A stretch of 64,000 nt of DNA from Deltaproteobacteria bacterium. Its GTDB lineage: Bacteria > Myxococcota > Myxococcia > Myxococcales > SZAS-1. Under the pieces are notes generated by a model. The model saw only the letters and a list, made by a program, of their open reading frames with translations, had not been told where the DNA came from and did not search any database. A program made the translations under genes and the position numbers. Each line of letters starts with the position of its first letter. The first letter of the stretch is position 1. Shown in pieces: positions 28,583 to 33,147 of this stretch. The DNA is taken from positions 1-64,000 of the forward strand of contig JAFEBB010000014.1 of NCBI GenBank assembly GCA_018266075.1, in the 5' to 3' direction.

Positions 28583-31500
28583 CTACCAGACGTACCGCAC
28601 GGCGTTGTTGCCGTAGTCCGCGATGACCAGGTGGCCACCTCCGGTGAAGGCGATGCCGTAGGGCGCATTGAGCTCGGCGGCCGTGGCCGCGCCGTAGTCG
28701 CCCGCGAAGTTCGCCGTGCCGTCCCCGACCACGGTGTAGACCTTCTGGTCGGCGGCGTTGATGCGGCGCACCCGGTTCGTCGAGATGAACGACATGTGGA
28801 GCTCCCCGGCCGGCGAGATCGCCAGGTAGGGCAGGTACTGCAGGTAGAGCGAGGTGGCCACGGTGCCGTCGGTGATGGGGCCGGACGAGGTCACGCCGCC
28901 GGCGACCACGGTGGGAGCGCCGCCCGTCTTGGGAATGCGCATCACGGCCGGCGTCTGGTTGCACGCGCTGTAGTTGTTGGCGCTGAAGTACAGGTTGCCC
29001 GTGCTGTCGAGGGCCATGGAGCAACCGTCGGCTCCGCCGCAGCCGAGGAACGGCTGGTTGCAGCCCGAGCCGTTCGCCACGATCACCGAGGTGATGATGC
29101 CCGTGACCGGATCCACCCGGCGGATGCGGTTGTGGCCGGTGTCCGCGATGAAGACCGAGCCGTCCGCCGGATCCACCAGGATGTGCGAAGCGCCCGAGAG
29201 GTTGGCGGCGGTCGCCGGGCCGTTGTCACCGTAGCCCGGGCCGCCCACCGAGCCGCCGCCCGCGAGGGTGGAGATGATGCCGCTCGCGAGGTCGACCTGG
29301 CGGATGCGCCCGTTGGAGCTGTCGGCGATGTACAGCTGGCCGCGGGCCTCGTCGAGCGCCACGCCGTAGGGGTAGTAGAGCGAAGCGCCCGTCGCCGGAC
29401 CCTGGTCGCCCGAGAACGACGCGGTGCCATTTCCGGCCACGGTGGTGATCTGCCCCTGGGGCGAGACCTTGCGCACCATCTGGTTCCGGTAGTCGGCGAA
29501 GTAGAAGGTGCCGTCGCTCGCCGTGGCGAAGTCGATGGGGCCCGCCACGTGCGCGGCCGTCGCCGGCCCGGGAACGCCCGTGTTCCCCGACGCGTGGTCC
29601 ACGTTGACCGCCGTGAACAGCGTGCCCGCGCTCGGCGCCTGGGCGGTCACGGTGAACGTGGCCGGGCTGCCCGCCACCGGCTGCCCGTGGATGTCGAAGA
29701 ACGTGGCCGCGAAGTGGTAGCTCTGCACCGCCAGGCCCGGCCGCACCGACACCAACGAGATACCCGAGTTGTTGGTGAGCGCGCTGGAGCTGTAGAGGGC
29801 GCCTCCCGGGTCCACCGAGGCCCAGAGCACGTTGAAGCCGCGCAGCGCCGAGTTGTTCGCGTCCACCAGCTTGGCTCCGATGGGCAGCGGCAGCTGGTCG
29901 ACGAGCGGGGTCTGGAGATCCCCCGAGCCCACCGAGAGGGTGCTCACGCTCGGCACCGAGGTGCCCGCGCCCGCGAGCACCCGGATCGCGTTGTTGGAGG
30001 CGTCGGAGATCCAGAGGCTGTTCGAGGGGTCGAAGGCGATGGCCGAAGGTGCGCTCAGCTGCGCCGAGGTGCCCACGCCGTAGTCGCCGCTGAAGCCCGC
30101 CGAGCCCGTCCCGGCCACGGTGGTGATGCGCCCGTTGCCACCCTCGATGCGGCGCACCGTGTTCGCCGAGGCGATGGAGAGGAACAGGTTCCCCGCGGGA
30201 TCGAAGGCCAGGTTGGGGATCGAGGCGATGTAGGCCGCCATCGCCGAGATGCCCTCGGCGGTGGAGCCGCCGCTCGAGCTGTTGCCGCCAGCGATGAGCA
30301 CCGGGGTGCCGCCCGTCTTGGGCACGCGCGACACCGCGTAGTAGTAGTTGCAGCTCACCTGGCTGCCGAAGAACAGGTTGCCCAGGCCGTCGAGGGCCAT
30401 GGTGCAGCCGCTGATGCTCCCGCCGCACGCCCCGAACGCCAGGCCGCAGCTGCTGTTGTCGCTCTGCACCACCAGGCTGATCACCGTGGAGATGGGGTTG
30501 ATGCGCCGGATGCGGTTGTGGCCGGTGTCGGCCACGTAGACCGAGCTGTCCACCGGGTCGACCAGCAGGTGCGAGGGGTACGAGAGCGCCGCGTTGCTCG
30601 CCGGTCCGTTGTCGCCGTAGCCGGGGCCAGGCGCGGTACCTCCGCCGGCGAAGGTGTAGATGTCGTGGCTGGCGAGGTCCACCACCCGGACCACATTATT
30701 GTAGGTGTCGCCGATGTAGAGCTGACCGTTGGGCTCGTCGAGGGCCACGCCCGTGGGGTAGTAGAGCTTCGCGCTGGTGGCGGCGCCCAGGTCGCCCGAG
30801 TAGCCCGCGCTGCCGGTGCCCGCCACCACGCTGATCACACCCTGCGGCGAGATCCGCTTCACCATGTGGTTGTTGCTGTCTGCGAAGTACACGGTGCCGT
30901 CGCTGGCCACTGCCAGATCGCTGGGGGAGTAGATCTGCGCAGCCGTGGCCGGGCCGGGCGCGCCGGAGTTGCCGCTGGCGTGGGCCACGTCGACGGCGGT
31001 GAAGATGTTCCCGGTGCTCACCGCGTTGGCGGTGGCGTGGATCACCAGCGGCTGCGCCCCCGGCGCGGTCGCGGTGAAGGCGTAGTCACTGGCGGCGAGG
31101 CCCAGGGTGGGCGTGAACGTCACCCGGCCCAGCCCGCTGGTGACCCCGGTGGTGGGCGAGAGCGCCACGCCTGCCGGCGCGGCGAGGGTCACGGTGACCC
31201 CGGGCACCGCGGTGCCGCCCGTGTCCGCGAGCTTGAGGGTGATCGGGCTGAGCGGCTGATCCACGGAGACGGTCTGGGCGTCGCCGACGAGGACCGTGAG
31301 CACGTACTGGGAGGTCTGGCAGCTGCCCCCGTTGCAGTAGGCGTTCGGGCCGCAGTTGGTGCCGTCGGGCGCGTTGGTGCCGGTGTCGGTGCACACGGCT
31401 GCGCCGGTGGAGCAGGAGTAGGCGCCCAGGTGGCAGGCGTTGGTGGGCGCGCACGCCCCGCCCGCGGTGCAGGCCACGCAGCCGCCCAGGCCGTCGCAGA

Positions 31501-32371
31501 CGTGGTCCACGCCGCCGTCCGTGCCGGTGCCGCAGGCCGTCCCCGGGTTCTCGGCCACGAACTGGCACTGGCCGCTGGTCGTGTCGCAGCTCGCGCCCAC
31601 GGCGCTGTAGCAGGTGGGGGCCACGCTGCAGTCCACCGGAGGCGTGGTCTGGGTGCAGGTCCCGGTGCTGCAGGTGCTCACCCCGTTGCAGAGGTTGCCG
31701 TCGTCGCAGTTGGCGCCCTCGTTGCCCGGCGACCAGGCGGAGGTGGAGACCGCGGCCGTGCACACCTCGCAGGCGTTGTTCGGGTTCACCGCGCCGTCCG
31801 CGTAGAGCGTGCCGCCGATCTTGCAGGCGTTGCACGCTCCGCTCAGGCAGTAGGCCAGCCCGCCGCCCGCCGGGGTGCAGGCGATGCCGTCGACCTCATT
31901 CGCCCAGCCGCTCGGGTTGCTGGAGCTGTCGCAGAGCTCGCAGGGGTTGGCCGGGTTGTAGGTCCCGTCGGGGTAGGAGGTCCCGTTGATGGTGCAGCCC
32001 GAGCCGCCGGTGGAGCCGCTCGAGGTGCCGACGGTGGAGCCGCTCGTACCCGAGGAGCCGCTGGCGGTGCTCGAGGAGCTCGAAGCGCTCGAGCCGGAGT
32101 TGCCGGTGGCGCCGCTGCTGCCGGTCGAGGTGGTGGTGGAGCTGCCGGTGGAGGCGTTGGAGCCGTTGCTGCCCGAGGTGCCGGTGTCGCCGGTGCTCCC
32201 CGTGGCGGTGGTGGTGCTCGACGAGGCCGAGCCCGAGGCATTGCTGGCCGTCGAGGAGTTGGTCGAGCCGGAGCCGTTGTTGCCCCCGGACGAGCCCCCG
32301 TTGTTCGAGCTGCCTCCCGACGTGCAGGCGGTCACCCAGAGCACACAAACAACAGCAGCAATCCTTCGCAT
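28583..32371 (-). CDS. giant NHL-repeat, Cys-rich surface lipoprotein with internal duplication
   Basis: This 1262-aa protein has a lipoprotein signal (VVCVLWVTAC, Cys16) and a GGGGAG ribosome-binding site. A Ser/Thr/Gly linker (about 17-130) leads to a Cys-rich region (about 140-390) of EGF/thrombospondin-like spacing. A beta-sandwich segment comes next, then a block of NHL repeats (about 455-805). A second beta-sandwich and a second NHL block (about 916-1262) repeat the first almost feature by feature, for example DASDGTxYFAD, YYPxGVALDE and VADTGHNRIRR. NHL blocks form beta-propellers for protein or ligand binding. It is probably displayed on the cell surface. Confidence 0.88.
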   Translation of the reverse strand: MRRIAAVVCVLWVTACTSGGSSNNGGSSGGNNGSGSTNSSTASNASGSASSSTTTATGSTGDTGTSGSNGSNASTGSSTTTSTGSSGATGNSGSSASSSSSTASGSSGTSGSTVGTSSGSTGGSGCTINGTSYPDGTYNPANPCELCDSSSNPSGWANEVDGIACTPAGGGLAYCLSGACNACKIGGTLYADGAVNPNNACEVCTAAVSTSAWSPGNEGANCDDGNLCNGVSTCSTGTCTQTTPPVDCSVAPTCYSAVGASCDTTSGQCQFVAENPGTACGTGTDGGVDHVCDGLGGCVACTAGGACAPTNACHLGAYSCSTGAAVCTDTGTNAPDGTNCGPNAYCNGGSCQTSQYVLTVLVGDAQTVSVDQPLSPITLKLADTGGTAVPGVTVTLAAPAGVALSPTTGVTSGLGRVTFTPTLGLAASDYAFTATAPGAQPLVIHATANAVSTGNIFTAVDVAHASGNSGAPGPATAAQIYSPSDLAVASDGTVYFADSNNHMVKRISPQGVISVVAGTGSAGYSGDLGAATSAKLYYPTGVALDEPNGQLYIGDTYNNVVRVVDLASHDIYTFAGGGTAPGPGYGDNGPASNAALSYPSHLLVDPVDSSVYVADTGHNRIRRINPISTVISLVVQSDNSSCGLAFGACGGSISGCTMALDGLGNLFFGSQVSCNYYYAVSRVPKTGGTPVLIAGGNSSSGGSTAEGISAMAAYIASIPNLAFDPAGNLFLSIASANTVRRIEGGNGRITTVAGTGSAGFSGDYGVGTSAQLSAPSAIAFDPSNSLWISDASNNAIRVLAGAGTSVPSVSTLSVGSGDLQTPLVDQLPLPIGAKLVDANNSALRGFNVLWASVDPGGALYSSSALTNNSGISLVSVRPGLAVQSYHFAATFFDIHGQPVAGSPATFTVTAQAPSAGTLFTAVNVDHASGNTGVPGPATAAHVAGPIDFATASDGTFYFADYRNQMVRKVSPQGQITTVAGNGTASFSGDQGPATGASLYYPYGVALDEARGQLYIADSSNGRIRQVDLASGIISTLAGGGSVGGPGYGDNGPATAANLSGASHILVDPADGSVFIADTGHNRIRRVDPVTGIITSVIVANGSGCNQPFLGCGGADGCSMALDSTGNLYFSANNYSACNQTPAVMRIPKTGGAPTVVAGGVTSSGPITDGTVATSLYLQYLPYLAISPAGELHMSFISTNRVRRINAADQKVYTVVGDGTANFAGDYGAATAAELNAPYGIAFTGGGHLVIADYGNNAVRYVW

Positions 32372-32499
32372 GGTTCTCTCCCCGGCGGACCGTCGTCGGC
32401 CTTCTCGGTCCAGTGGCGGACGGGCTCTTAGCAGAATGCCCGCTCTTCGGGGTAGCTGGCCCAAGTGGGTCGTGCGCGGCGCGGGGGCTGTTGCTCGAA

Positions 32500-32528
32500 T
32501 TGAGTCTGGCCTGCGCCGACGTTATACC
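32500..32528 (+). promoter_or_regulatory. candidate promoter of the DsbA-like selenoprotein gene
   Basis: TTGAGT at 32500-32505 and TATACC at 32523-32528 are separated by exactly 17 bp. A start 7-8 nt downstream would fall on or next to the A of the ATG at 32536, implying a leaderless transcript. No Shine-Dalgarno sequence precedes this ATG, which is consistent. The boxes are partial matches only. Confidence 0.35.
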
Positions 32529-32535
32529 GCCGCCC

Positions 32536-33147
32536 ATGAGCACCACGCTGACCCTGTACACCGACTTCGTTTGACCGTTCTGCTTCATTGCGGAGCGAAG
32601 CAGCCTGGTCAGGCTGCAAAAAGAATTCGACATCGAGCTGGACTGGCACGGCTACGAGCTGCACCCGGACACGCCGCCGGGCGGCATCGCGCTCGTCGAG
32701 AAGTTCGGGCCGCGCATCCACGCCATGCACAAGAACCTCGAGCAGTTCGCCAAGGGCTTCGGCGTGACGGACATGAAGCTGCGCGAGCGCTCGCCCAACA
32801 CGCGCCGCGCGCTCGCGGTGGCCGAGTACGCCCGCGAGCAGGGCAAGCTCGAGGCCTTCCGTCAGCGCGCCATGGACGCCCACTGGACCCAGGGCAAGGA
32901 CCTCGAGTCCGACGTCGACCTGCGCGCGCTGGCCACCGAAGCCGGGCTCGATCCCGACGCCGCCGTCGCCGCGTCGAACGATCCCAAGTACCTCGCGCGA
33001 ATCGATGCGCGCCGCGAACAGGCCGAAGAGGTGGGCATCACCGGCATCCCCACGTTCGTGATTGGCAACCGAGCGGTCGTCGGCTGCCAGCCGTACGAGG
33101 TGCTCGCGAAGTTCGCCGAGGTCTGCGGGGCGAAGCGGAAGAGCTGA
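32536..33147 (+). CDS. DsbA/FrnE-like thiol oxidoreductase, candidate selenoprotein (UPFC active site)
   Basis: Read with TGA (32572-32574) as selenocysteine, this gives a 203-aa thioredoxin-fold protein. It begins MSTTLTLYTDFV, then U13-P-F-C16-FIAERSSLV. Family members have CPFC exactly here, so the TGA replaces the first, attacking Cys. The frame stays open with strong family similarity on both sides (WHGYELHPDTPPGG, GITGIPTFVIGN with the cis-Pro, and VVGCQPYE). A perfect hairpin with a GGUC loop follows the TGA at bacterial SECIS distance. There is no signal peptide, as in FrnE-like cytoplasmic enzymes. The alternative is a nonsense mutation; the placement at the redox Cys, the SECIS and the otherwise pristine frame argue against that. 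sel genes are not in the window. Confidence 0.85.
32600..32617 (+). promoter_or_regulatory. candidate bacterial SECIS element
   Basis: GCAGCCT (32600-32606), a GGTC loop (32607-32610) and AGGCTGC (32611-32617) form a perfect 7-bp stem with a GGU-containing apical loop, the feature recognised by SelB. The apical loop begins 32 nt after the in-frame UGA, inside the 16-37 nt range known for bacterial SECIS elements. An alternative 7-bp hairpin (CTGCTTC at 32580-32586 with GAAGCAG at 32597-32603) shares the GCAG bases and cannot coexist with it. Confidence 0.8.

Follow-up and report, generated by a model that had tools for sequence, protein, structure and literature searches.

A FrnE-like DsbA-family protein with a predicted selenocysteine in its UPFC active site

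The locus and its reading frame

The window, that is, the whole 64-kb stretch of DNA analysed, comes from a myxobacterial genome and contains a forward-strand frame that reads MSTTLTLYTDFV-TGA-PFCFIAERSS and otherwise stays open as far as a TGA stop at 33145–33147 (Table 1). The internal TGA is the only one in frame, and it occupies codon 13, the place of the first Cys in a CPFC active site. The PF01323 (DSBA) domain spans residues 4–192 of the translated protein, and in a genome-wide search with this domain the best match is the same locus, with one TGA within. Besides Sec13, the protein holds Cys only at residues 16, 184 and 195, and residue 203 is the last. The frame had been reported in a preliminary description, and our re-reading agrees with it. 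That description also warned that ordinary annotation would either drop the first 63 codons or call a pseudogene; a standard ORF caller gives 32725–33147.

Table 1. Features of the selenoprotein locus (positions in the window)
Feature	Position	Strand	Basis
FrnE/DsbA-like selenoprotein CDS, 203 residues; TGA codon 13 read as Sec (predicted), terminal TGA as stop	32536..33147	+	PF01323, E 2.5e-35 (Cys substituted for TGA)
UGA codon for predicted Sec13, which opens the U-P-F-C active site	32572..32574	+	relatives: 129 TGA, 60 TGC/TGT, 0 other
Codon of Cys16 in the UxxC motif, presumably the resolving residue	32581..32583	+	invariant in alignments A1/A2
Codon of Pro172 (in GIPTF), presumably the cis-Pro that faces the active site	33049..33051	+	invariant column; cis from fold family
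Cys184 codon in VVGCQPYE, third conserved Cys of most UPFC and gammaproteobacterial members	33085..33087	+	alignments
Internal ATG, codon 64; start chosen by a standard gene caller, active site lost	32725..32727	+	ORF list
Putative SECIS apical hairpin, 7 bp, GGUC loop (32607–32610), within the coding frame	32600..32617	+	fold, conservation
Weaker second hairpin between UGA and SECIS, role unsure	32576..32597	+	predicted fold
TATACC, -10-like hexamer 7 nt before the ATG	32523..32528	+	family comparison

Upstream, a divergent gene on the reverse strand (28583–32464) encodes a long NHL-repeat protein, and the downstream gene encodes a 180-residue protein with no Pfam match; neither neighbour gives a functional hint. 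Of 38 family members, 17 have a TANNN[TC] element that ends 6–8 nt upstream of the start codon, whereas the same test further upstream finds a mean of 0.6 and a maximum of 3. This pattern suggests that the mRNA of the gene, and often that of its UPFC relatives, is leaderless, in which case UGA recoding would often occur at codon 13 of a leaderless message. A promoter scan of the locus with the sigma-70 consensus returned nothing, and the -10-like hexamer is visible in the family comparison only. Some family members have an AAGGAG-like site before the start instead.

Codon 13, the hairpin and the selenocysteine machinery

Relatives were collected from contigs of 84,980 species, which yielded 80 loci, and from 195 genomes of the same phylum, of which 108 had matches. 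The active-site residue is readable in 189 of these loci, which are not all independent since the two sets overlap in some genomes: 129 carry TGA, 60 carry TGC or TGT, and none carries any other codon. One additional locus ends before this position and stands outside the count. TGA is found at the same codon in many independent assemblies, including those of the isolates Anaeromyxobacter terrae and A. oryzisoli. The nearest relatives share about 60% identity with the window protein, which is the sole family member of its lineage in the genomes listed. The nearest relative (61%), which bears the same hairpin, lies in a metagenome-assembled genome labelled Chloroflexi (L018), by transfer or in a mislabelled bin. 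A search of plasmids for relatives found only distant ones, below 60% identity. We also notice a genome with two paralogues (L110 and L218 in G059), both with TGA at the active site, and a locus with one TGA and one TAG within the match (L193 in G070), perhaps a pseudogene or an error.

Downstream of the TGA lies a perfect 7-bp stem, GCAGCCT-GGTC-AGGCTGC. Both strands of the 64-kb window considered, no other GGTC-loop hairpin has at least six Watson-Crick pairs, and the 69 nt starting at the UGA fold with a z-score of -3.0. The apical loops of bacterial SECIS elements lie 16–37 nt after the UGA (PMC10778597). The present loop falls in this range, beginning 32 nt past the UGA, and contains the expected G.

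The conservation of the hairpin is tied to the UGA. Simply taking the best hairpin of each member proved too permissive to choose the SECIS in all of them, so the hairpin was tested at a fixed position. In the 31 distinct UGA sequences of the UPFC clade, the GGTC loop and the codons CTG-GTC-AGG are invariant and the four inner pairs are always formed (31/31). In the Cys members of this clade, both the GGTC loop and the innermost pair are missing (0/9 each). The Arg codon AGG in the hairpin is used by all 31 Sec members, whose genes otherwise have AGG at 3.4% of their Arg codons, and by none of the nine Cys members. Third positions differ from the window gene in 1.1% of cases within the hairpin codons, compared with 32.5% just before and 40.6% just after. 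A SECIS covariance model scores 86 bits at the window site, and its second-best hit in the whole genome has 18 bits; Cys relatives reach 37–50 bits, probably from shared coding sequence. Covariation itself is weak, with one compensatory change that 44 of 500 shuffles equal, because the stem is nearly invariant. An Rfam scan of the site gave a chance match only, and Rfam has no matching SECIS family.

The genome possesses the whole selenocysteine pathway. In profile searches, selA (558 bits), selD (385 bits) and selB (300 bits across its full length) all exceed their cut-offs, and tRNA-Sec (selC) scores 71.8 bits against a cut-off of 47, with the anticodon tca (UCA) read by ARAGORN. Matches to formate dehydrogenase in the same genome contain no TGA and are therefore not evidence for selenocysteine use. 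Across the 107 phylum genomes with a readable residue, selA is present in 70 of 70 with TGA and in 32 of 37 with Cys (Fisher p 0.004, relatedness ignored, resting on the five selA-less Cys genomes). All five readable matches in selA-less genomes thus have Cys; three (G095, G068 and G072) fall within Sec-bearing clades and two (G161 and G162) are more distant FrnE-type proteins. The preliminary description had placed the TGA on the first Cys of CPFC and a 7-bp GGUC hairpin at SECIS distance, and had named as checks Cys/Sec pairs among homologues and selA, selB, selC and selD in the genome; each of these is borne out.

Readings of the UGA codon

By every computational test made, the gene appears to be a genuine selenoprotein gene. 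We regard it as almost certain that UGA codon 13 is decoded as selenocysteine and that the product is a thiol/selenol-disulfide oxidoreductase belonging to the FrnE branch of the DsbA family. SelB would bind the GGUC-loop hairpin 32 nt downstream and bring Sec-tRNA, with its UCA anticodon, to the ribosome. Sec13 would then be the exposed attacking residue of the UPFC site, exchanging with substrate disulfides, and Cys16 would resolve the mixed selenenylsulfide. The protein has no signal-like N-terminus, and its location is presumably cytoplasmic.

In other bacteria, near-cognate tRNAs are known to misread UGA as Cys or Trp, and the same could be imagined here in place of Sec insertion. We consider this very improbable, as the Sec machinery of the genome is complete, every Cys relative in the clade has lost the SECIS hairpin, and UGA is not found in the selA-less genomes.

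The TGA could instead have arisen by an error of sequencing or assembly, or by a nonsense mutation that made the gene a pseudogene, the true residue being Cys. TGA and TGC are one base apart, and the sequence comes from a draft assembly in 166 contigs. Against this, relatives in many independently assembled genomes, isolates among them, share the TGA at this codon; the gene has the GGUC hairpin that true Cys relatives lack; and its 203 codons show no damage apart from the TGA. This explanation is refuted in practice. Termination at the UGA, with a 140-residue product beginning at the internal ATG as the ORF caller reports, can likewise be dismissed: GC3 is 0.90 from the TGA to that ATG and 0.91 in the rest of the gene and in the whole, so codons 14–63 look coding, third positions in the codons tested on that side vary more than first and second ones, and such a product would contain nothing of the active site and would miss the first strands of the thioredoxin fold.

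Sec/Cys exchange and relation to known proteins

A tree of 104 proteins, built by a quick method with no bootstrap, contains three Sec-holding clades: the UPFC clade (34 rows, support 98), a myxobacterial UPWC clade (27 rows, support 100) and a mainly gammaproteobacterial UPWC clade (29 rows, support 99). The UPWC members come from marine-type Gammaproteobacteria (L035, L037, L039 and others) and from other Myxococcota (L139–L211), and their hairpins lie closer to the UGA. The hairpins of the three clades are unlike in sequence and in place: the loop begins about 32 nt past the UGA in the UPFC clade, about 21 nt in the myxobacterial UPWC clade and about 20 nt in the mainly gammaproteobacterial one. 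At minimum, 11 Sec/Cys changes are needed on this tree, and at least five are forced by starred branches.

Two near sisters, L116 (G053) and L117 (G054), differ at this site: one has TGA and the hairpin, and the other has TGC and a broken hairpin. Both genomes have selA. To judge from the sequences, the pair marks a recent Sec/Cys switch.

Repeated gain of Sec is one possible history suggested by these sequences; it is also possible that one ancestral SECIS moved and that Sec was repeatedly lost. As a tentative proposal, which we hold at somewhat less than even confidence, the FrnE family gained Sec more than once (three clades, at least five switches), and in the UPFC clade the recoding takes place at codon 13 of an often leaderless mRNA.

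We considered a coupling between Sec and the third Cys, in VVGCQ, and rejected it, as the residue tracks the clade instead. In the UPFC clade this position is Cys in 27 and Ala in 8 of the Sec forms, and Cys in 9 and Ala in 1 of the Cys forms; in the myxobacterial UPWC clade it is Ala in all members read.

Standard annotation would begin the window gene at codon 64 and discard its active site, and the same misannotation is a risk in many myxobacterial and gammaproteobacterial genomes. Since near-sister Sec and Cys forms occur, some in selA-less genomes, the family is well suited to asking why bacteria retain or lose selenocysteine.

The AlphaFold model of the window protein is confident throughout (mean pLDDT 96.5). 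Its best fold matches in the PDB are structures of Deinococcus radiodurans FrnE (TM 0.82–0.83), followed by a Streptomyces DsbA-like protein, 2-hydroxychromene-2-carboxylate isomerase and kappa-class glutathione transferase. FrnE is also the best PDB match by sequence, and together with the PF01323 domain this upholds the 'FrnE-like' label of the preliminary description. None of the NCBIfam models attains its cut-off with the window protein. One of them, NF041057 (Rcas_1661 family thioredoxin-like (seleno)lipoprotein), is likewise thioredoxin-like with Sec in some members; we rejected membership in it, the match scoring 33.9 bits against a cut-off of 190 and being limited to residues 127–193.

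D. radiodurans FrnE (DR_0659; PDB 5cnw and others) is thus the closest solved protein in fold and in sequence. In the sequence alignment, Cys22 of its CPWC motif aligns with Sec13, so that it has Cys where the window protein has Sec. It is a cytoplasmic disulfide reductase/isomerase, and D. radiodurans without it is sensitive to cadmium and diamide (PMC8945050). By analogy, the window protein more likely acts as a reductase or isomerase than as an oxidase. A C-terminal CX4C motif (residues 239–244) is proposed to regenerate the active site of D. radiodurans FrnE (PMC8945050). The window protein, in contrast, is without this motif, and we infer that its regeneration differs. Some other FrnE proteins also lack CX4C (PMC8945050), hence the motif does not define the family.

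The published DsbA-like selenoproteins are assigned to COG2761, the FrnE group. The Sargasso Sea yielded such a protein, with a UxxC motif, in 2005 (PMC1088965). A list from 2006 includes one for Anaeromyxobacter dehalogenans (PMC1794560), DsbA selenoprotein families were found in ocean metagenomes in 2008 (PMC2398784), and a 2026 review includes 'DsbA-like protein form 1' (PF01323), predicted with high confidence (PMC13188914). The preliminary description was not aware of this FrnE-like subfamily being commonly annotated as selenoproteins; novelty is its weak point in view of these reports, and the window gene is therefore not of a new kind. In two single-contig genomes, assigned to Anaeromyxobacter from the match of loci L031 and L124, the only TGA-bearing PF01323 match is the ortholog of the window gene, and the 2006 A. 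dehalogenans entry is probably that ortholog. What may be new is the repeated Sec/Cys switching in three clades with differently placed hairpins, and the apparently leaderless mRNA. In its Pfam domain, its UxxC motif and a bacterial SECIS right after the UGA, the window gene matches the published DsbA-like selenoproteins.
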